In this document: positions 24,648 through 40,415 of the stretch, piece after piece
Position numbering within the stretch: position 1 is the first letter of the stretch
Layout: every line of letters starts with the position of its first letter
Assembly: GCF_024346315.1 (NCBI RefSeq)
Contig: NZ_JAGQCS010000002.1
Span: 372,001 to 436,000, forward strand
DNA from: Cyanobium sp. ATX 6F1
GTDB taxonomy: Bacteria; Cyanobacteriota; Cyanobacteriia; PCC-6307; Cyanobiaceae
Direction of reading: 5' to 3'
Length of the DNA stretch: 64,000 bases
Program-made: the position numbers and the translations under genes
The notes under the pieces: generated by a model
Database searches by the model: none
What the model was told of the DNA's origin: nothing
What the model saw: the letters and a program-made list of their open reading frames with translations, nothing else

Positions 24648-25438
24648 ATCCGGGCCTCCCAGAGCATCAGGCTTAGCAGGATTTCGGCATACATCCGCTG
24701 GAAGGCATAGAACCAGCCGCGCCAGCCATCGAGCAGGCCGCCCTTGAGCACCAGACACACCAGCAGCACCGCAAACGGGGCGAGCACATGGGTCTTGCGC
24801 AGGCGATCGGCGGCGGAGAGCTGACCATGGGGAGTGGTGAGCAACTTGCTGGCTTCCTGTTGGAGATAACCCTCCTGGGAACGCAGCCAACGGGCAAGAG
24901 GTTTGCGGTCGTCGTGGAGGATCGGCTGATTCAGCAAAGCTGATGCACCCTGGAGCTCATAGCGATGGGCATGGCCGTCGTTGACGTAGCGGCCGGAACC
25001 CAGCCGGTACAAGGCCAGTCGAGGGGGGAGAATGGATCCCCGCAAAGGCTTTCCATCGACGCAATAGCGAAAGGGAATGCGGAAACCTTTGATGGCATCA
25101 GAGACTTCAGCCAAGGCTGCTCGGATTTCAGCAACGAGCCCTAGGGAAATCCGGTAATCGGCATCAAGGCTGAGCACCCATGAGGTATTGATCTGTGTGA
25201 GGCCGAAGTTGCACTGCTCAGCAAACGAATCGAAGGCGCGGTGGACGACTTCCACCCGAGAATGGAGCGCCAGGATCTCCAGGGTGCGATCGGTGCTGCC
25301 GCTGTCGATGACCACGATCCGCTGCGCCCAGGTCAGGCCCTCGAGGGTACGGGCGATGTTGGGCTCCTCATTGTAAGTGAGCAGCAGTGGCGTGATCCCA
25401 TCCAGAACCGAGCTGCAGTCAACCACGCCGAAATACAT
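24644..25438 (-). CDS. Glycosyltransferase family 2
   Basis: A 264-aa GT-A enzyme related to the WaaE/KdtX lipooligosaccharide glucosyltransferase group: PLLLTYNEEPNIARTLEGL, VIDSGSTDRTLEIL and the DxD-type LSLDADYRIS. The C-terminal third contains a hydrophobic segment (VLAPFAVLLVCLVLKGGLLDG) for membrane contact. The start at 25438 overlaps the upstream gene by 20 nt; a GTG at 25426 is an alternative. Followed by the coupled methyltransferase. Confidence 0.88.
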   Translation of the reverse strand: MYFGVVDCSSVLDGITPLLLTYNEEPNIARTLEGLTWAQRIVVIDSGSTDRTLEILALHSRVEVVHRAFDSFAEQCNFGLTQINTSWVLSLDADYRISLGLVAEIRAALAEVSDAIKGFRIPFRYCVDGKPLRGSILPPRLALYRLGSGRYVNDGHAHRYELQGASALLNQPILHDDRKPLARWLRSQEGYLQQEASKLLTTPHGQLSAADRLRKTHVLAPFAVLLVCLVLKGGLLDGWRGWFYAFQRMYAEILLSLMLWEARM

Positions 25439-26357
25439 TAAGCAGAAGTAATCTCAGGGCCAACAGCAACTTAGCCACTAAATTAATGGGCGGATCCGGA
25501 TGGGCACACAACAGAATAGGTTCGCTGTCCGCAGAGAAAGGGCGATTTCTGTCGACATAGATTACATCGAAATGCTGCTTAGAGAGACCAGAGAGATGCA
25601 ACACCGGTGATGAGCCAGCCTGGGCAATCAGTTGCTGAGCCGTAAGCCGTTGCTTGGAGGAGATGAACTTAACCCGATTGGCTCGCACGTCCGCAGCGGA
25701 ACGGGTGGCGAACCCTGAGAGAACGCAGGCCGACTGACCATCGAAGAACCTCGGCTCCACGTCACGCCCCGCCAGCAGCGACCAAGCTGATTGCTCGGAC
25801 CACCATTTGTTGCGTAAACCCGCGAAGTAGCGCCTGACCGTGCGCTCGAGGAAATGGAGATCAATCGCGGCGGGCTGCAGCAGCACAAAACCTGCATTAA
25901 ACGACAGCACCATCGCTTCCCGCAACGGCATTGTCCAATGAGCCCGGTAGGCCGGCACGTCCTCTCGCAGGTAATGGAGGCATGTTCCCTCGGGGAGCCG
26001 CACAGGGCAACGGATCAGAACATCGGTATCGATCAGCAGCACCCGTTCCAGATCTGCTCCGATCACCGCGACATCGAGAATCTTGCGCCAAGTGAGATCC
26101 TCCGCACGGATCTGACGCAGTAAAGGAAAGGGTTCCAACGCCACCGCAACGCGTTGCTCCTGATCCAGTTCGATGCGAAAGCGGAGGTGTCTGGGCAGCA
26201 CAGACAGCGCCTCTGGCGTGAGTTCGCCGCCCCCATCGGAAAGCAGAAGAATCTCGTCCGAGCATCCTTCCATCAGCCCCCAGGACCGCACGCAATCGGG
26301 TACCCAGGAGTGCTGCAGGGGCCAAAGGCCAATCAATGAGACCAAGGTTGTGTTCAT
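25419..26357 (-). CDS. Putative glycosyltransferase (GT-A fold)
   Basis: A 312-aa protein of uncertain family. The segment LERVLLIDTDVLIRCPV carries a DTD motif like the metal-binding DxD of retaining GT-A enzymes, and LSFNAGFVLLQPAAID matches the NxGxxL element seen after it in GT8-like proteins. GLSKQHFDVIYVD may be the C-terminal metal His. The end is hydrophobic (NLVAKLLLALRLLLLNVF). Its place in the cluster supports a role in sugar transfer; donor and acceptor are unknown. Confidence 0.65.
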   Translation of the reverse strand: MNTTLVSLIGLWPLQHSWVPDCVRSWGLMEGCSDEILLLSDGGGELTPEALSVLPRHLRFRIELDQEQRVAVALEPFPLLRQIRAEDLTWRKILDVAVIGADLERVLLIDTDVLIRCPVRLPEGTCLHYLREDVPAYRAHWTMPLREAMVLSFNAGFVLLQPAAIDLHFLERTVRRYFAGLRNKWWSEQSAWSLLAGRDVEPRFFDGQSACVLSGFATRSAADVRANRVKFISSKQRLTAQQLIAQAGSSPVLHLSGLSKQHFDVIYVDRNRPFSADSEPILLCAHPDPPINLVAKLLLALRLLLLNVFRRG

Positions 26358-26463
26358 GAACGCAGGAGTTCTCGCTGGGACAGCTGGGGGCCTGCATGGC
26401 TCACCATGGATTGATCAGGCTGTCGGGTAACCACGAATGGATCGATGAGATAAACACAGGCCT

Positions 26464-27696
26464 TTAGATTTCAGTCCTTAGAGGGGATCGGGCCGATGGT
26501 CGACGCCCACCAGCGCCAGAGAAGTCCTTGAGGATCTCCTGGTAGTACTGCTCCAGCTGAGCAACAATCGATCCCCAGCAGTAAATGTTCGTGGCCAGAA
26601 GGCGCGCCGCCTCCGTCATCGCGGCAGGTGGTTGTTCCAGGGCGCGCTTTAACGCCCCGGCCAGGGCCTCCAAGTCGGCCTCCACCACCACACCCGCCCC
26701 AGCCCGTTCCACCGCAGCGGCGATGGCTACGCCTGGACAGAGAATCACGGGGGTGCCAGCGGCGAGGGCTTCGGCGGCGGCGATGCCGAAGTTTTCTGAA
26801 GCCGAGGGCAGCACGAACCAGTCGGCGCGCTGCAGCAGCTCCAGTTTGCGGGCACCAGCCACAAAACCCAGCCACTGGCAGCGTTCGGCAAGGCCCAGCC
26901 GCTGAGCGAGGGCCCTGAGCTCGGCCAGATAGGCGGGCTCCCCCTCCCCGGCGATCTGCAGCGTCCAGGGGGCCTCGGGGCGCTGGAGTTGCAGGGCGGC
27001 GAGGGCCTCCAGCAGCAGCGGCAGTTGCTTCTTGGGATGGAGGCGAGAAAGGAACAAAAAGACAATCCGATCAGACGCCCCACGCTCCCGCGCCAGCAGC
27101 AACTCCGGCAACTCCGGCAGCTCCACCCCCAGGGGCAACACGAAGGACGGGGTGGCCAGGCCCAGATCCGCCGCTTCCTGCTGCTCGGCGTCACTGGTGA
27201 AGTGCAAGGCCGCCGCCCCCTCCAGGTTGCGGCGCTCGATCAGCCTGAGCAGCAGCCGCTTGCGGCCAGGGCTCTGCTTCAGGCTCCAGCGGTTGAGCTG
27301 GCCGATGCTGCGCAGCAGGTAGGGCACCTTCAGGGCCCGGGCGACGGCCATGCCGCTGGTGGAGGGATAGGAGAACAGCGCATGCACGTGCAGCAGATCG
27401 AACTCACGCAGGTGGGCCCGCAGCCAGCGCGTGAGCCCAGGGGCCACGGCGAATTCCCGCAGGGGCCCCAGGGGCGGACTCCAGCGGGGAAAGGCCAGCA
27501 CGGGTACGCCCTGGCGTTCGTGCCACTCGCCCAGGGGCAGATCCGCCAGCAGCCCCGGCCCGTCGTCGTTGGTGGTGAGGATGCGGGCGTCCACCCCCTG
27601 GCGGCGCAGCTCGGCGGCCATCGCCAGCACCGCCTGGCTGGGGCCACCGCGCAAGGGACTGATCGAGGGGATGAGGTGGAGGATTCTCAGCAACAT
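26464..27696 (-). CDS. Glycosyltransferase family 4
   Basis: A 410-aa GT-B enzyme. The N-terminal acceptor domain begins ILHLIPSISPLRGGPSQAVLAMAAELRR. The C-terminal donor domain has FLFLSRLHPKKQLPLLLEAL and the retaining E-x7-E motif in SASENFGIAAAEALAAGTPVI. The first ~32 codons are duplicated at 28898-28991, upstream of an imported acyltransferase gene. It is separated from that gene by only 37 nt. Confidence 0.92.
   Translation of the reverse strand: MLLRILHLIPSISPLRGGPSQAVLAMAAELRRQGVDARILTTNDDGPGLLADLPLGEWHERQGVPVLAFPRWSPPLGPLREFAVAPGLTRWLRAHLREFDLLHVHALFSYPSTSGMAVARALKVPYLLRSIGQLNRWSLKQSPGRKRLLLRLIERRNLEGAAALHFTSDAEQQEAADLGLATPSFVLPLGVELPELPELLLARERGASDRIVFLFLSRLHPKKQLPLLLEALAALQLQRPEAPWTLQIAGEGEPAYLAELRALAQRLGLAERCQWLGFVAGARKLELLQRADWFVLPSASENFGIAAAEALAAGTPVILCPGVAIAAAVERAGAGVVVEADLEALAGALKRALEQPPAAMTEAARLLATNIYCWGSIVAQLEQYYQEILKDFSGAGGRRPSARSPLRTEI
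27591..27684. repeat. Direct repeat copy A (5' end of glycosyltransferase gene)
   Basis: These 94 nt match 28898-28991 in the same orientation with 8 mismatches by my count. The copy lies inside the intact glycosyltransferase gene at 26464. Together the two copies flank the AT-rich acyltransferase gene. Confidence 0.85.
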
Positions 27697-27733
27697 GTAC
27701 CAAGCCGAAACGATCGAATCCCAAAAGCTTGAA

Positions 27734-28840
27734 TCACTCCCTTCTCAACGAGGCGCGTACGGAGAAAAACGGTTTCTCAAGCAAGGAATAAGATGCGACT
27801 GCTACTACAAAGGAAGGCACAAGCCAAATCCTCCAATCCCACAGGAATGGAATGGAGTAATCCTGAGAATGGCCGAAGAAGAAGTGCGAGAGAAAAAGTA
27901 CGTGCCAAACATAAAGAGAATAGCTAATGACACCGATACTGATCAACCATTTAGCGGATAACGCCCTTACCAAAATCCCGCCTGTTTCCGAGCAGGCCAA
28001 AAATATTTCAAATAACATGATCAAACCGATCAGGGGCTGCCTCAGTGCATCGAGCAATAGTGGCCCCGCATGATAACAGTCCAGGAAGAACATGACAGGA
28101 ACGAGAAGGATTCCTGCAACTTGAGCCTCCCCCGCGGAAAAGAATTTAGCAATCGACGAATTATTTAATCTTCTCCAAAGATAGGCGCCTGCGACGCCAA
28201 TTACAAGAGAATCTGCATAACGCATCAAACCGCGGGGCCCCAGCAATCTTGCGATAACTGAACCGCCGGCCCCAGGATCTGGAGCGGCCAGTCGAACCAA
28301 TACCACAACGGAAACGATTAAAAATATGCCTACGATGGCTTTCCTTGGTGAACCAAAGCCAAAGAGAATAAACATCATGGGCCACAACGCATAAAACTGC
28401 CACTCAACAGAAAGACTCCAGAAATGAACTGTCGCCGAGTTGCCAACACCAAGATAATTCCTTGTTTGACTCAAAGCACCTGCATACGAAGAAAGACTGT
28501 CCGAATAAATCAAAACGAGATCAAGAAGCATAAGAGTGGCAATGTAGACGACACAGACCGGCAGCAACCGATACGCACGTCGCAGGTAAAACTTGCGGAG
28601 ATCCACAGACCCCTTGCATTGGAGCTCATCCAACAAAATACCTGAAATTAAAAATCCAGACAAGACAAGGAAAATTCTTACTCCAAGATCGCCAAAAGAA
28701 AATACCCAATGATAAGCATTGGCAATTTGCACAGGAAAATTGTTGGCATAAGGGAAGTGAGAGATCAATACCAAAATAATAGCGACTCCTCTAATACCAT
28801 CCAAGCTCTTAATGCGCCCTGACTTTCTAAGGGAATTCAT
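27734..28840 (-). CDS. Acyltransferase-3 family membrane protein
   Basis: A 368-aa inner-membrane enzyme that would O-acylate (usually acetylate) extracytoplasmic sugars. It starts MNSLRKSGRIKSLDGIRGVAIILVLISHFPY; the LDGIRG and early His are standard for the family, as are RIFLVLSGFLISGIL and RKFYLRRAYRLLPV. About ten helices follow. The gene is clearly more AT-rich than its neighbours on both sides and sits between two copies of a glycosyltransferase 5' end, so it was probably acquired separately. The frame reaches 28849, but the ATG at 28840 is the better start. Confidence 0.9.
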   Translation of the reverse strand: MNSLRKSGRIKSLDGIRGVAIILVLISHFPYANNFPVQIANAYHWVFSFGDLGVRIFLVLSGFLISGILLDELQCKGSVDLRKFYLRRAYRLLPVCVVYIATLMLLDLVLIYSDSLSSYAGALSQTRNYLGVGNSATVHFWSLSVEWQFYALWPMMFILFGFGSPRKAIVGIFLIVSVVVLVRLAAPDPGAGGSVIARLLGPRGLMRYADSLVIGVAGAYLWRRLNNSSIAKFFSAGEAQVAGILLVPVMFFLDCYHAGPLLLDALRQPLIGLIMLFEIFLACSETGGILVRALSAKWLISIGVISYSLYVWHVLFLSHFFFGHSQDYSIPFLWDWRIWLVPSFVVAVASYSLLEKPFFSVRASLRRE

Positions 28841-28865
28841 TTGAAGCAAATTCGTTGTTTATTGG

Positions 28866-28997
28866 TCATGAATTCAAGAGTTTAACTTGAACAAATTCCA
28901 CCCCCTCACGGCGCAGCTCGGCGGTCATCGCCAGCACCGCCTGGCTGGGGCCGCCGCGCAGAGGGCTAATCGAGGGGATGAGGTGGAGGATGTTCAT
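28866..28997 (-). pseudogene. 5' remnant of a glycosyltransferase gene
   Basis: Encodes MNILHLIPSISPLRGGPSQ and about 16 further matching residues (to REGVEF), then diverges to VQVKLLNS and a stop after 43 codons. The matched part is the N-terminus of the GT4 gene at 26464. A full gene of about 1.2 kb must have been lost or replaced here. The remnant starts 7 nt after the FkbM gene. Confidence 0.82.
28898..28991. repeat. Direct repeat copy B (glycosyltransferase remnant)
   Basis: Matches 27591-27684 with 8 mismatches in 94 positions. The similarity ends abruptly at 28898, where AT-rich sequence of the acyltransferase segment begins. Confidence 0.85.
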
Positions 28998-29004
28998 GCC
29001 GGCC

Positions 29005-29856
29005 TCAGATCGAAAGGCCCAGCACATCGAAGCAGGGCGCTGAGGCCACCCGGCCGCGGGCCCAGGTGAGATCTCGGATCCAGATCTGGTTGCCGGTGCG
29101 GGCATGGGGATCAACCGTGATCGTCCGGGTCCAGGGGTCGTAGCCGCAGGCCTGGTAGCCATGGCCCAACAGCACGCTCTGCACATCCGGGCTGCGGTCT
29201 TCGATCAACAGCGCCATCGGCGGCGCCTCAGCCAGGGTCTGCCGGGCTCCGCGCAGCACCTCCCGTTCGTGGCCTTCCACATCGAGCTTCCAGAGCGCGG
29301 CCTGGCGCAACCCCGCAATGGCATCGATCGGCAGCACCTCGACGCCGGCGGCGTGCCCGGCGTAGTCGTCTCCCACCACCTGATTCATTGGACCGCGATC
29401 GAGGCTGAAGCGCAGGTGGCCTGGCTCACTGCCGAGGGCGGCCTGATAGGCGCTGACCTGATCGAGCAGGCCATTGAAGGCGAGATTGCGCTGCAGCCAG
29501 GAGAAGGTGGCGGGGGCCGGCTCGAAGCTCAGCGAACAGCAGCCCACGGCCCCCGAAGCCAGCACGGTGTAGCTGCCCACGTTGGCTCCCAGGTCGGCGA
29601 AGCTGTCCGCAGGCCGGAGGAGATGCAGCACAAAGGCCATGTCGGGCCATTCATGCAGACCGCAGTAGAAGTTGCCGGTGGCGCCGGTCATGCCGCGGGT
29701 GATCACGAGGCTGGTGCCATTGACCCAGGGCACGGCCACGGGCCAGGGCAAGAGCCGGGCGCCGGGCTGCCAGCGCAGATAGCGGCCGGTCGCCTGAAGC
29801 CGGTCGCGACGGCTGAGCGGATGGCGCCAGATGTAGGGCAGGCCCCTTTGGAACAT
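29005..29856 (-). CDS. FkbM-family methyltransferase
   Basis: A 283-aa SAM-dependent methyltransferase. The SAM-binding start is FADLGANVGSYTVLAS, then LSFEPAPATFSWLQRNL, and the family motif ALWKLDVEGHEREVLRGA near residue 200. It probably O-methylates a sugar hydroxyl. The start at 29856 (MFQRGLPYIW) shares one base with the asnB stop (TGATG). The first of four FkbM-type enzymes in the island. Confidence 0.9.
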   Translation of the reverse strand: MFQRGLPYIWRHPLSRRDRLQATGRYLRWQPGARLLPWPVAVPWVNGTSLVITRGMTGATGNFYCGLHEWPDMAFVLHLLRPADSFADLGANVGSYTVLASGAVGCCSLSFEPAPATFSWLQRNLAFNGLLDQVSAYQAALGSEPGHLRFSLDRGPMNQVVGDDYAGHAAGVEVLPIDAIAGLRQAALWKLDVEGHEREVLRGARQTLAEAPPMALLIEDRSPDVQSVLLGHGYQACGYDPWTRTITVDPHARTGNQIWIRDLTWARGRVASAPCFDVLGLSI

Positions 29857-31658
29857 CACGTCAGCTCCACCCCCAGGTGCCGCTCCAGCCAATCGCTGAG
29901 CACCAGCAGCCCCCAGCGGCGGGCCCAGGGGCGCAGGTCGAGGTCGGCGGGGGTGGGGGGCAGCGGCGGCAGCCCCCAGGCGCGGGGTTGGAAGTCGTTG
30001 GCGTCGAACCAGCGCTGGAAGGGGAAGGAGAAGCCCTGCTTGGGGGCCCGGCCCACCAGCGCTTCGGCCTCGGGCACCGCCTGGCGCAACAGGCGCTTAC
30101 GCGCCGCCAGGCGCTGGGCGGCCGGCTGACCGGCCACGGCCCGCAGCAGCTCCGCATCCACCAGCGGCAGGCGCAACTCCAGCGCGTGGGCCATCGCCAT
30201 CCCATCGCTGTCGATCAGCAGTTGCTGGCCCATGTAGAGGCTGCTCTCCAGCCAGGCGATCTGATCCGCGGCGCTGGGGAAGCGGGAGGAATCCTCCACG
30301 GGTGAGGCCTCAGGGCCTTGCGGCTCCGGGGGCTCCAGGCCCCAGTGGCGCAGCAGGCGGGCCACCTCGCTGGGGGAGAAGATGCCGCGCAGGGAGCGGT
30401 AGCTGCTCTCGATCGAGGCCGGCCGGCGCAGGCCGTCGGCGATCCGCTGGGCACCGGCGCGGTGGCTGCGGCCGAGGGCGGCGGCGGCCAACGGAGCCAG
30501 GGCCTGCAGGCCGCGGTGCAGCCGCCAGGCCCGGGGCAGGCGCTGGAAGCTGGGGTAGCCACCAAACAATTCATCGCCGCCCAGGCCGCTGAGCACCACC
30601 TTGAGCCCCAGCCCCGCCGCCAGCTTGGAGACGCCGTAGGTGTTGAAGCCATCGACGCTGGGCTGATCGATCGCCCCCAGGAAGCCGGGGATGTGGGCGG
30701 CCGCATCGGCGGCGCGGAGCTGCACGTTGTGGTGGGTGGCGCCGAACTGACGGGCGAGGGCGGCGGCACGCCCGGATTCATCGAAGCCGGCCTCGGCGAA
30801 GCCGATCGAGATGGTGGTGAGCGGCTGCTCCGCCAACGCGAGCACGGCGGCGGAATCAAGACCACCGGAGAGGAACAGGCCCACGGGCACATCGCTGAGC
30901 AGGTGGGCCCGCACCGAGGCGCCCAGGGCCGTGCGGGTGTGGGCCACCAGATCGGGGCCCTCCAGCACCCCATCGGGGGCGTAGCTGGGCTGCCAGTGGC
31001 GCTGGATCTGCCAGCGGCCCTCCTGCCAGAGGCCCAGGTGGCCGGGGGGCAGCGGGGTGATCCCCTCCACCAGGGTGCGGTGGTGGGGGAGGCTGCCCTG
31101 GCTCAGGAAATCGGCCAGCCCCTGCCGATCCAGCCGCCGCGGCACCCGCCCGGTGGCCAGCAGGGCGCGCAGCTCGGAGGCGAACAGCAGTTCGCCATGG
31201 CTGCCGTGGTGCAGGTAGAGGGGCTTGATGCCGTAGGGATCGCGGGCCAGCAGGGCGCGGCGTTCCTGGCGATCCCAGAGGCAGAAGGCGTACATGCCCC
31301 GTAGCCGCTGCAGGGCGCCGAGGCCATAGCGCGCATAGAGCTCCAGCAGCACTTCGGTGTCGCTGCTCGAATGGAAGCGGTGGCCCAGGCGCTCCAGCTG
31401 ACAGCGCAGCTCGCGCTGGTTGTAGATCTCGCCGTTGAACACCACCACGTAGCGCCCGCAGGCCGAGGGCATCGGCTGGTGGCCGGCGGGGGAGAGGTCC
31501 TGGATCGCCAGGCGCCGGTGAACCAGGGTGATGCCCCGCTCACTCCAGACACCGGCGTCATCGGGGCCGCGGTGGGCGAGGGCCTGGTCGAGGGCCGCCA
31601 CCAGATCGGGAGCCGATGGCTCGGCGGAGGGAGACAACAGGCCAGCGATGCCGCACAT
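29856..31658 (-). CDS. asnB: Asparagine synthase (glutamine-hydrolysing) / glycan amidotransferase
   Basis: A 600-aa two-domain protein. The N-terminal class II glutaminase begins MCGIAGLLSP with Cys2 as nucleophile, and has HRRLAIQDLSPAG and FNGEIYN. The C-terminal synthetase has the pyrophosphate loop LFLSGGLDSAAVLAL and a KVVLSGLGGDELFGGY segment. Cells need only one asparagine synthase; copies inside polysaccharide clusters are thought to amidate uronic or amino sugars or other glycan parts, and a family of such enzymes accompanies exosortase/EPS loci. Which role applies cannot be told here. Coupled to the FkbM gene downstream and 3 nt from the glycosyltransferase upstream. Confidence 0.88.
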   Translation of the reverse strand: MCGIAGLLSPSAEPSAPDLVAALDQALAHRGPDDAGVWSERGITLVHRRLAIQDLSPAGHQPMPSACGRYVVVFNGEIYNQRELRCQLERLGHRFHSSSDTEVLLELYARYGLGALQRLRGMYAFCLWDRQERRALLARDPYGIKPLYLHHGSHGELLFASELRALLATGRVPRRLDRQGLADFLSQGSLPHHRTLVEGITPLPPGHLGLWQEGRWQIQRHWQPSYAPDGVLEGPDLVAHTRTALGASVRAHLLSDVPVGLFLSGGLDSAAVLALAEQPLTTISIGFAEAGFDESGRAAALARQFGATHHNVQLRAADAAAHIPGFLGAIDQPSVDGFNTYGVSKLAAGLGLKVVLSGLGGDELFGGYPSFQRLPRAWRLHRGLQALAPLAAAALGRSHRAGAQRIADGLRRPASIESSYRSLRGIFSPSEVARLLRHWGLEPPEPQGPEASPVEDSSRFPSAADQIAWLESSLYMGQQLLIDSDGMAMAHALELRLPLVDAELLRAVAGQPAAQRLAARKRLLRQAVPEAEALVGRAPKQGFSFPFQRWFDANDFQPRAWGLPPLPPTPADLDLRPWARRWGLLVLSDWLERHLGVELT

Positions 31659-35451: not shown

Positions 35452-36752
35452 CGGCAGCGGCGCAGGAAGTCCATCAACTGGGCGGCCTGGGCGGCGGCGG
35501 TGTGGGGTCTGATCGCCTGCGGATCGAGGGGCACGGGGGTGGCGTACTGATCCCGCTGCAGCCAGGCGTGGTCGATGGCGGCCGCAAGGGTGCCTGGGCT
35601 TTCGCCGCTGGGGAACGGCACCACCGTGCCGCCCCCGCAGCATCTGATCAAGGGCACCACCGGGCTGCGCTCGTGCATCAGCGCCAGCAGGGGGCGGCGG
35701 GCCAGCAGGTAGGGGATGAGCTTGGAGGCGGTGTAGGCCGGATCATCGGAGCCGATCACCAGCAGGGCATCGGCGGCCCTGAGGCTGGCGAGGGTGAGCG
35801 AGAGGGGCAGGCGATCGGTGCGCTCCTCCACCAGGTGGCCCAGCCCGAGGCGCTCGGCAACGGGGCGAATGCTGGGGATCCCGGACCCTGCGGCGGCGTA
35901 GGAGGTGCCGAGGAAATGGAGCCGCAGGCGGCTCAGCAGGCTTGCTGAAGCATGGCGCTTGAGGGCGAGGAACAGGCCCTCGAGCGCCGTGGTGAGATCA
36001 GCGCCGCCCCGGCCGATCGACAGCCAGTGGATCAGCCCGTCGCCGGGATCAAAGGGCAGGGCGCCGGGGGGGATCGCCTCCAGGCGTTCGAAATCCTCGG
36101 GCGCACCGGGAAACGGCAGCTCAAGGGAGGGCCGCCCAACGGTGAAGGGATAACGCCGATGCAGATCGTCGAGGTAGGCCGCACTGACGGCGATCAAACC
36201 GGAGCAGGTCTGCAGCACCCGGGGTTCGCGGCTGCGATTCAGGCGATCGGCGAGGGCGTATTTGAGGCGGCCGCCGGGCGGGCTGATCTGGGGGTGATCG
36301 CGGTAGTAGTCGTTGACCCAGGGATCCTGGTAATCCAGCACGAACGGCACCCCGAAGCGCTGGCGCCAGCGGGGCCCGAGGCGGAAGCAGCCGAAGGCGG
36401 TGCTGGAGACCAGCACCCGATCGAAGGGGCGCTCGTTGAGCAGACGATCACCGGCCGCAGCCAGGGCCCCGAGGCAGCGGGCCTCGACGCTGCCCAGGCC
36501 GGGCACACGGCTCCAGCGCAGGCTGCGGCCGCGGACCCGGTGGATCGGCACGGTGGCCGGCAGAGCGTCCGCCTGCCAGGGATCCATTGGGGAGGCCACG
36601 CAGACGGGATCCACCGCCAGCACCTCCGCCTCCACCCCCTGGGCGGCGAAGTGGGGCAGCAGCATGCGCAGACGCTGGCTGTCGGCGGCGCTGGTGGGGG
36701 GAAAGCGGGGGGAGACCAGAAGAACTCTCAAGATTGGCCCACCAGCAAGCAA
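35448..36752 (-). CDS. Glycosyltransferase, GT4-like
   Basis: A protein of up to 434 aa with a GT-B pattern. N-terminal: LRVLLVSPRFPPTSAADSQRLRMLL, then VLDYQDPWVNDYY, a motif common in the acceptor domains of WbuB-like enzymes. Donor domain: LIHWLSIGRGGADLTTAL and SDDPAYTASKLIPYLLARRPLLALM, where SKLIPYL corresponds to the donor-binding helix. It starts with TTG at either 36752 or 36731; the latter begins at LRVLLVS and fits the family better. Upstream lies AT-rich sequence, so this may be the first gene of a transcript. Confidence 0.82.
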   Translation of the reverse strand: MLAGGPILRVLLVSPRFPPTSAADSQRLRMLLPHFAAQGVEAEVLAVDPVCVASPMDPWQADALPATVPIHRVRGRSLRWSRVPGLGSVEARCLGALAAAGDRLLNERPFDRVLVSSTAFGCFRLGPRWRQRFGVPFVLDYQDPWVNDYYRDHPQISPPGGRLKYALADRLNRSREPRVLQTCSGLIAVSAAYLDDLHRRYPFTVGRPSLELPFPGAPEDFERLEAIPPGALPFDPGDGLIHWLSIGRGGADLTTALEGLFLALKRHASASLLSRLRLHFLGTSYAAAGSGIPSIRPVAERLGLGHLVEERTDRLPLSLTLASLRAADALLVIGSDDPAYTASKLIPYLLARRPLLALMHERSPVVPLIRCCGGGTVVPFPSGESPGTLAAAIDHAWLQRDQYATPVPLDPQAIRPHTAAAQAAQLMDFLRRCR

Positions 36753-36969: not shown

Positions 36970-37593
36970 TCAACGCTTGCGCACAAGCAGACCTTCGTAG
37001 ACACCAACTTGAGCAGGAACATAATCGACAAAGTTCTGACAAGAAGAAATCTCCTCGATCAAATCAACCAGAATATAGTCCCGGCTCTTGCCCCAAAAAT
37101 CATCATTGTCCCAGTTATCGCAATAAATAAATCCCCCCTTCTTTACCTTTGGAAATCCTTTTGTAAAGCATTCTGATCTTGGGCCTCCATCAATAAACAA
37201 TAGATCTAAATGTCCATCAGGAAGCTCGGAAAAATCCGACATCACGCTTCCACGCCATTCATACCTTAAATCTACATTATCGATTTTCTCGCCTTCTATC
37301 ATTATACATAGTAACTTAAACCATTCCTCCGAAGCTTCAATGCTGACTAAGGACTGAACGCGATCCGAGAGCCAAAGAGTACTAAAACCTGAGCCTACTT
37401 CCCATACCTTCCAATTACTCCGCAGAATCTCGTCTAATTTCTTGGAGGCGGCAAAAGGTATCCAAGGCTGTCGAGGAAAACGCCCGAAAAACTTACGTCG
37501 CAAAGCCTGAGAAAAAGAGGTTAGAGAGTGCGGAAGATTCTTCCAACCCACAAACTGACCCTTTCCAGTTTTCAAGCGACCCATAAATAGCAA
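36970..37593 (-). CDS. Class I methyltransferase-like protein
   Basis: A 207-aa protein with a Rossmann methyltransferase core: VWEVGSGFSTLWLSDRVQ (motif I), LVSIEASEEWFKLL (acidic motif II) and LDLLFIDGGPRSE, then GGFIYCDNWDN. This order is seen in small SAM-dependent methyltransferases of surface glycan clusters. The gene is AT-rich and flanked by AT-rich intergenic DNA, suggesting recent arrival. Start may be ATG 37593 or 37584. Substrate unknown. Confidence 0.78.
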   Translation of the reverse strand: MLFMGRLKTGKGQFVGWKNLPHSLTSFSQALRRKFFGRFPRQPWIPFAASKKLDEILRSNWKVWEVGSGFSTLWLSDRVQSLVSIEASEEWFKLLCIMIEGEKIDNVDLRYEWRGSVMSDFSELPDGHLDLLFIDGGPRSECFTKGFPKVKKGGFIYCDNWDNDDFWGKSRDYILVDLIEEISSCQNFVDYVPAQVGVYEGLLVRKR

Positions 37594-38584: not shown

Positions 38585-39688
38585 CTACGCCTGCAGCTGC
38601 GGCCGGCGGCTGAAGCGATGGCTTGGCCGCTCGATCAGAGCCCAGAACCCCCAGGCCACCAGCACCGACAGCACCAGGGCCAGCAGACACACCAGCAACT
38701 GAGACAGCGGAGAGAGTGGCCAGCGGCTGAGCAGATTCACCACGCGCCCGCCGATGGGCACGTGAGTGAGAAAGAGCGAATAGGAGATGCCCCCGAACCA
38801 GAGCAACGGCGCCGGGCCAAAGGCCGGAGCCGCCAGGGCCAGGTGCAGCAGCGCAACGCACACCGCGGCCACCAAGGCCTGCTCGATGCCGGCCAGCCTG
38901 GCCAGAAGGAGCAGCAGCCAGGCCATCGCCAGCCAGTGCAACGGCCGGGGCCGCATGGCCTGGTGGGCCGTGACCCAGCCGAGCGCGAACACCGGCAGCA
39001 CCCGGAACACCAGCGTGTTCTGGGGGATCAGCACCGCCAGGGCCGAAACGGCCGCCACCCCCAGTGCGTAGAGCCAGGGTGAAAGAGCCTCACGCTGGGC
39101 GGGCCGGGCCCAGGGTTCGATCAGGCCGGCCACGGCGTAGAACTGCACCTCCAGGGCGAGGGTCCAGGCCACCACCAGGATCCAGCTGCCGCCCAGCAGG
39201 CCGGTGAGGTAGAGGTTGTCGCTGAGCAGGGCCGTGAACGCCTGCGGAACGGTGACGCTGAAGCTGCCCTGATACCCCGGTGCCAGGGTGGAGAGACAGT
39301 TGAGGCCCAGCGCCAGCACAGAGGCCACGGCGTAGGGAGGCTGGAGGCGCAACAGGCGGCGCATCAGAAACGAAGGCAGATCGCGAAGCGAACCCAGCAG
39401 ACCATCCACCGGGGGTGCATTGCGGATGCTCCAGGGAATCACGAAGCCGGTGAGCACGAAGAAGAGCGTGATGCCGTGAAAGCCGATCGCGCCTAGGGCC
39501 GAGGCGGCCTGGAGGAGCGGGCTGGCGGCACCGGCCAACAGCTTGCCGCCGTGGGTGATGTGAAACCAGGCCACGGCAAGGGCCGCCACGCAACGAAGCA
39601 CCTCCAGCGAGTGGATGCGGCCGGATGTGCTCACAGCGTTGAGCGCGCGAACAACTGCTTGGCCCGCAGACCGGGCCTCTCGATCCAT
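38585..39688 (-). CDS. Acyltransferase-3 family membrane protein
   Basis: A 367-aa polytopic membrane acyltransferase. Family elements: RIHSLEVLRCVAALAVAWFHITHG near the start with the conserved His, GITLFFVLTGFVIPWSIR, and FLMRRLLRLQPPY. About ten helices follow. Unlike the acyltransferase at 27734 it has the high GC of the core genome. It would transfer acetyl or another acyl group to extracytoplasmic sugars. Start at ATG 39688, 10 nt after the upstream FkbM gene; an ATG at 39721 would overlap it. Confidence 0.88.
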   Translation of the reverse strand: MDREARSAGQAVVRALNAVSTSGRIHSLEVLRCVAALAVAWFHITHGGKLLAGAASPLLQAASALGAIGFHGITLFFVLTGFVIPWSIRNAPPVDGLLGSLRDLPSFLMRRLLRLQPPYAVASVLALGLNCLSTLAPGYQGSFSVTVPQAFTALLSDNLYLTGLLGGSWILVVAWTLALEVQFYAVAGLIEPWARPAQREALSPWLYALGVAAVSALAVLIPQNTLVFRVLPVFALGWVTAHQAMRPRPLHWLAMAWLLLLLARLAGIEQALVAAVCVALLHLALAAPAFGPAPLLWFGGISYSLFLTHVPIGGRVVNLLSRWPLSPLSQLLVCLLALVLSVLVAWGFWALIERPSHRFSRRPQLQA

Positions 39689-39698
39689 TGGGTTGTCA

Positions 39699-40415
39699 TC
39701 AGTCCCAAGCCGCCGAGGCAATCAGGTCAGAGCCTTGCCGTACATAGAAAGCATCCAGTTGCCACAGGGCCCCATCAAGCGGCCGGTCGTACTGAGGCAG
39801 CACGTCGTAAAGCCGGTAGCCATTTTCTTCGAAGAAACGGTTCACCTCCGCAAAGGTCGGCACATCGCCAATGGGGATCACTGAGAGTTCACAGATGATC
39901 ACCTCAAAGGGTGAGAGGTGATCTACGGCTCCATGCAGAGCCTGCAGCTCATGGCCCTGGAGATCCAACTTCAGCAGATTGGGCAAAAACCCCGGCCGAT
40001 CCTGCAGGATCGCCGCGAGGGTGGCGCAAGGAACCGTGATGCTCCCTTCATCAGGCGATCCGCCCTGTCGGATGCCGCTGTTGGACTCTTGCAGATGAAA
40101 GATGACCGAACCAGCCTGGTCCGACAGAGCTGCCGCGAGCACCTCACTCCCTGCCACCGATGCAGCCAGATCACGAAGCTGTGATTGAGGTTCTGGCTGG
40201 GGCTCAATCATCAGCACCGGCACCTGGGGAAACACATCCCAGAATTCACGCGTCCAGTCGCCGCGATAGGCAACGGCATCGATCGCACCACTGCAACGGA
40301 AGCCCGCCCGTCTGAGCTGCTGCAGGCGGGTGGTCATGTCGCGCACGGCGAACAGGCGACGCTTCAGCGCCTGGCGCCAGTGGTGCGGCACCAAAGTGAA
40401 GAACCTATTCATCAC
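39699..40415 (-). CDS. FkbM-family methyltransferase
   Basis: A 238-aa SAM-dependent methyltransferase of the short FkbM type. GAIDAVAYRGDWTREFWDVFP replaces the usual GxxG start, followed by VLMIEPQPEPQSQL, and the family motif LLKLDLQGHELQALHGA (residues about 150-166). Probably methylates a sugar or a glycan-linked group. It lies between another FkbM gene and an acyltransferase, all on the same strand. Confidence 0.87.
   Translation of the reverse strand: MMNRFFTLVPHHWRQALKRRLFAVRDMTTRLQQLRRAGFRCSGAIDAVAYRGDWTREFWDVFPQVPVLMIEPQPEPQSQLRDLAASVAGSEVLAAALSDQAGSVIFHLQESNSGIRQGGSPDEGSITVPCATLAAILQDRPGFLPNLLKLDLQGHELQALHGAVDHLSPFEVIICELSVIPIGDVPTFAEVNRFFEENGYRLYDVLPQYDRPLDGALWQLDAFYVRQGSDLIASAAWD

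Follow-up and report, generated by a model that had tools for sequence, protein, structure and literature searches.

How did an AT-rich acyltransferase gene come to lie between two copies of the start of a glycosyltransferase gene? The arrangement belongs to a minus-strand glycan gene cluster in the 64,000-nucleotide stretch of DNA analysed here (the window), part of a 2.96-Mb genome of 17 contigs. An FkbM-type methyltransferase gene identified by Pfam (29005–29892) is followed by a 43-codon frame (28997–28866), an acyltransferase-3 gene (27734–28849) and a complete GT4-type glycosyltransferase gene encoding 410 amino acids (26464–27696), all on the minus strand, with positions 26464 and 28866 being 3′ ends. 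A Pfam scan of ten cluster proteins identified three GT4-type and one GT2-type glycosyltransferases, one asparagine synthase-like protein (asnB), one FkbM protein and two acyltransferase-3 proteins, with no match for the 43-codon remnant or for a 312-aa protein. Promoter-like sites (one at 27650–29050 against 1.5 expected) and terminator-like sites (five in the same interval against 2.3 expected, sd 1.5) were not used as support.

The initial annotation had described a near-identical repeat with eight mismatches, shared by the start of the GT4 gene and the 43-codon remnant, and an AT-rich acyltransferase between the two copies. Both observations were borne out. A blastn search of the remnant against the whole window aligned 95 nt without gaps and with eight mismatches (28897–28991 against 27590–27684, E = 6e-35), the next-best match being 25 nt long (E = 0.002), and a repeat search of the window recovered the same pair as 100 nt at 90% identity. 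The repeat covers the first codons of the GT4 gene (start at 27696), where we call it F (27590–27684, minus strand), and of the 43-codon frame. The latter is a real frame; its first 101 nt (33 codons and two bases, 28897–28997, minus strand; hereafter R), running from an ATG at 28997 that lies 7 nt behind FkbM, are GT4-like, whereas the rest (28866–28896; one base, nine codons and a stop) has no match to F or to the congener described below beyond 28897. Among the matches listed for the window's own genome, only R and F cover the GT4 N-terminus, and the repeat did not turn up elsewhere as an ordinary mobile sequence; its occurrence as one would, in the terms of the initial annotation, have refuted that reading.

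The block between the copies (27697–28896, minus strand) is 1200 nt long and has a GC content of 0.449, compared with 0.622 for the window. Its acyltransferase gene has a GC content of 0.456, compared with 0.682 for FkbM and 0.685 for GT4, and has an intact frame of 371 aa starting from TTG. The protein matches PF01757 over residues 14–352 (E = 7.9e-25, 88 bits against a cut-off of 31) and also exceeds the cut-off for PF07786 (HGSNAT_cat; 27.2 against 22). It contains R20-X10-H31, the sequence FLVLSG at residue 60 (a loose match to the FFXISG-type motif) and RAYR at residue 91 (RXXR). Searches of 300 family genomes at E = 1e-30 and of 386 phylum genomes at E = 1e-40 detected no match in the 299 and 385 genomes other than the window's own; at E = 1e-10, ten other genomes of 292 matched with 30–38% identity. 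None of the solved structures matched by sequence at 1e-3. The inserted gene is thus probably foreign and, judging from its family and motifs, probably encodes a membrane enzyme that acylates a surface glycan, which makes remodelling of the glycan plausible. The cluster has a second acyltransferase-3 gene (38585–39721) with a GC content of 0.682, which is distant from the inserted one (29% identity over 171 aa). Another AT-rich gene (36970–37593, GC content 0.433) lies just past the end, at 36722, of a blastn match to a stretch of the congener's cluster (L052).

Comparison with a strain lacking the acyltransferase, which the initial annotation had proposed, proved informative. The genus is represented by two genomes including our own, so the congener comparison uses one genome, Cyanobium sp. 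Morenito 9A2 (Morenito). Its gene order is asnB–FkbM–GT4–GT2–methyltransferase; there is one GT4 gene, and the acyltransferase and the remnant are both missing from this position. Morenito's own acyltransferase-3 gene sits elsewhere in its cluster (L052:833–1909), and its product is 31.5% identical to the inserted one (blastp), too weak a similarity to register in the 1e-30 search. In 20-nt steps against Morenito, R agrees at 14–20 of 20 positions over a stretch that begins 109 nt ahead of the anchor motif and includes the head, and then at 4, whereas F agrees at 2–6 of 20 before the GT4 start and at 16–20 after it. The window is therefore Morenito-like through FkbM and the remnant and departs about 100 nt into GT4, and the complete GT4 gene is Morenito-like from its own start onward. 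The edge on the F side falls at the GT4 start codon, and similarity on the R side stops at 28897. These two edges mirror each other with respect to Morenito; the remnant is thus where the single GT4 gene formerly began, and the start carried by the complete gene is the added one. On this alignment the change is best described as a 1.2-kb insertion with a duplicated GT4 head, R being the orphaned original start.

To place this comparison more widely, we used a family search in which 36 of 300 genomes matched; 30 loci were taken, one being the window's own, leaving 29 relatives' loci. FkbM lies directly before GT4, with no acyltransferase, in L024 (as two tblastn pieces), L025, L038 and L044, which are four genomes of three other genera, and asnB lies directly before GT4 in L026, L032, L046 and L047. 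Together with Morenito's, these are the loci among the 29 that could be classified by the window's genes. The FkbM–GT4 order in three other genera suggests that the state without the acyltransferase is ancestral and that an insertion occurred in the window's lineage, rather than a loss in Morenito. A head-motif scan found one head in each of 40 loci (33 distinct places, since L052 repeats L004 and L077–L082 repeat six others) and two in the window; the scan reached about 1.5 kb upstream of GT4 in most loci and 74 nt in L054, and a head lacking the motif would escape it. The full-length second GT4 gene behind FkbM that the initial annotation had suggested looking for was thus not seen, with no second head in the 33 distinct relatives' loci. 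Nor did a relative carrying the remnant without the acyltransferase turn up (with one congener available), which would have spoken against the annotation.

From the aligned sequences, we consider it fairly probable that an FkbM–GT4 ancestor gained the acyltransferase through recombination that used the conserved GT4 start as anchor on one side and was completed by a non-homologous join on the other. In the ancestor a single GT4 gene would have come immediately after FkbM, the order still seen in Morenito; this step is supported by the comparison. Incoming DNA would have carried the acyltransferase gene ahead of a GT4 start. Pairing between this start and the resident one would have allowed a crossover into the resident gene, and the other end of the incoming DNA would have become attached, without homology, at a point about 100 nt into that gene; both joins are inferred. 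The product would be FkbM, a broken GT4 start, the acyltransferase and a complete GT4 gene, so that the host would still have its glycosyltransferase, and the broken start may have undergone later decay. The F edge at the start codon is what a donor with a GT4 start of its own after the acyltransferase would be expected to leave, and the shared 95-nt head provides a homologous stretch on one side of the insert. We found no donor with an acyltransferase–GT4 arrangement, so the crossover is not directly visible. ComEC and DprA domains are encoded in the window's own genome; however, ComEC is also matched in 10 and DprA in 11 of the 14 control genomes, E. coli included, and matches this common do not show competence. 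Of the two routes offered by the initial annotation, Morenito and the four genomes of three other genera favour the one in which the gene arrived by recombination in the conserved start.

The other route, in which GT4 was duplicated in tandem behind FkbM and the acyltransferase then took the place of most of the first copy, seems quite unlikely. It would explain why two adjacent bases are common to F and R but different in Morenito, as expected of copies made within a lineage, but it needs an extra step, the block has no match to any other piece of a first GT4 copy, and the relatives' loci, each with a single head, lend it no support. A single crossover of circular DNA carrying the acyltransferase and a fragment of a GT4 head would leave the same order of head, payload and head, and is in keeping with the apparent absence of any loss of resident sequence at the junction relative to Morenito. 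We regard it as unlikely: such a circle would have to carry no more of a GT4 gene than about its first 100 nt, and no plasmid with a close acyltransferase was found (3 of 72,556 plasmid records matched at E = 1e-20, the best with 30% identity).

Two further explanations appear very improbable. Insertion of a mobile element with a long target duplication would account for the direct repeats that flank the block, but usual target duplications are far shorter than the about 95 nt seen here, one edge of the block falls at a start codon, and the acyltransferase is the sole frame of at least 90 aa wholly inside it. Inverted repeats in and around the block are only 10–15 nt long at 80–92% identity, the pair nearest both ends being 12 nt at 83%. 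We give similarly little credence to the reverse direction, in which the acyltransferase arrangement came first and the two repeats later recombined in Morenito, removing the block. Such recombination would leave exactly the FkbM–GT4 arrangement of Morenito, and direction cannot be set from one congener alone; against it stand the FkbM–GT4 loci without the acyltransferase outside the genus and a block that is foreign in GC content and without close relatives in the genomes searched.

Insertion anchored in the GT4 start leaves two heads whose histories can be compared. Over 96 nt, F and R differ at nine sites, F and Morenito at eight, and R and Morenito at 12. The two adjacent bases shared by F and R are the last two of one codon (GCC/ACC), and at these 26 and 27 of 32 outgroups side with Morenito. 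This single codon points to an origin of both heads in the window's lineage or in a near relative, and F and R may be old copies that arose inside the lineage. The divergence between them also suggests that the event was not very recent. Private differences number six in R and two in F, a difference that is not significant in a relative-rate test (p = 0.29). Changes private to F are found towards the 5′ end of the repeat and most of those private to R towards its 3′ end (4:1 against 0:5, p = 0.048, counting two sites just 5′ of the core; 2:1 against 0:5, p = 0.11, without them), as a crossover inside the repeat would give, although the pattern is weak, with ten sites and a split chosen after looking. 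A further candidate signal was set aside: GT4 codons 1–195 are nearer to Morenito, with 18 of 104 fourfold sites differing compared with 27 of 77 in codons 196–340 (p = 0.009; p = 0.019 against five neighbouring genes), but this split was also picked after looking and asnB is similarly low (60 of 348).

The complete GT4 protein is related to HpsP but scores 279.5 bits against NF038295, for which the equivalog cut-off is 550, and we do not file it as HpsP. Its identity to Morenito falls from 59 of 70 residues in codons 251–320 to 17 of 55 in codons 341–395. Behind it lies the gene for the 312-aa protein (25419–26357, minus strand), which has no NCBIfam match either. Morenito does not have this gene at the corresponding position, and a search of 300 family genomes at 1e-15 gave no match in the 299 other than the window's own. 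The GT4 C-terminus, from about codon 336 (26464–26690, minus strand), was probably replaced together with this gene, making a probable second exchanged module (25400–26690). The GT4 tail is variable across the family (31–44% identity to the window's tail in the 32 other relatives), so fast change rather than exchange may explain the divergence; but Morenito is much closer than these 32 in codons 1–190 and no closer in the tail. A search for traces of the Morenito tail at 25300–26700 gave no clear match (best E = 0.11). The genes behind GT4 vary among the relatives. A GT2 gene follows directly or within about 100 nt in Morenito, L038, L044, L054 and L056, a long hydrophobic frame follows in L057, and proteins of 480–488 aa without a Pfam match, 42–80% identical to one another, are encoded directly behind GT4 in L077 (7754–9205), L078 (10818–12260), L079 (7963–9411) and L080 (10956–12422). 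This variety suggests that the neighbours of GT4 change while GT4 stays. The 480–488 aa proteins are hydrophobic and give the impression of Wzy-type polymerases.

Glycan clusters are known mosaics, and the acquisition described here is of an ordinary kind, but a scar marking the point at which a gene entered is seldom left, and this one is unusually readable. The former start, the payload and the complete gene are neighbours, and together with the empty site in a congener they make the route of a likely glycan change in a cyanobacterium readable. The presence of a surface acyltransferase might affect how cells are grazed or how phages attach to them. Literature searches on acyltransferase insertion or a truncated glycosyltransferase with recombination, and on cyanobacterial polysaccharide clusters, gave no recognisable instance of the same case among the matches listed, which is no proof of its absence from print.

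The inserted enzyme resembles OafA, OafB and Oac as described in two papers (PMC7448272, PMC9558356). There, R/K-X10-H in TMH1, an FFXISG-type motif and RXXR are given as motifs of OafA-type acyltransferase-3 proteins; the inserted enzyme shares PF01757, R/K-X10-H, RXXR and an F..SG motif with them but differs in that Pfam finds no SGNH domain in its 371 aa. The proposed route resembles homology-facilitated illegitimate recombination, which is named for Acinetobacter, Streptococcus and Pseudomonas, is proposed for Vibrio cholerae T6SS effector modules and is described as orders of magnitude rarer than ordinary homologous recombination (PMC5361080). Common to that account and ours are a conserved anchor, a non-homologous payload and displaced remnants of the old gene beside the new one; here, by contrast, the remnant is a gene start, the resident gene is whole and the case is known from sequence alone.

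A broader and rather doubtful possibility is that the conserved start and end of GT4 are recurrent anchors by which picocyanobacterial glycan clusters take up genes. On that reading GT4 would be a constant gene whose neighbours are exchangeable, with a role much like that of the constant effector starts in T6SS and Rhs loci.
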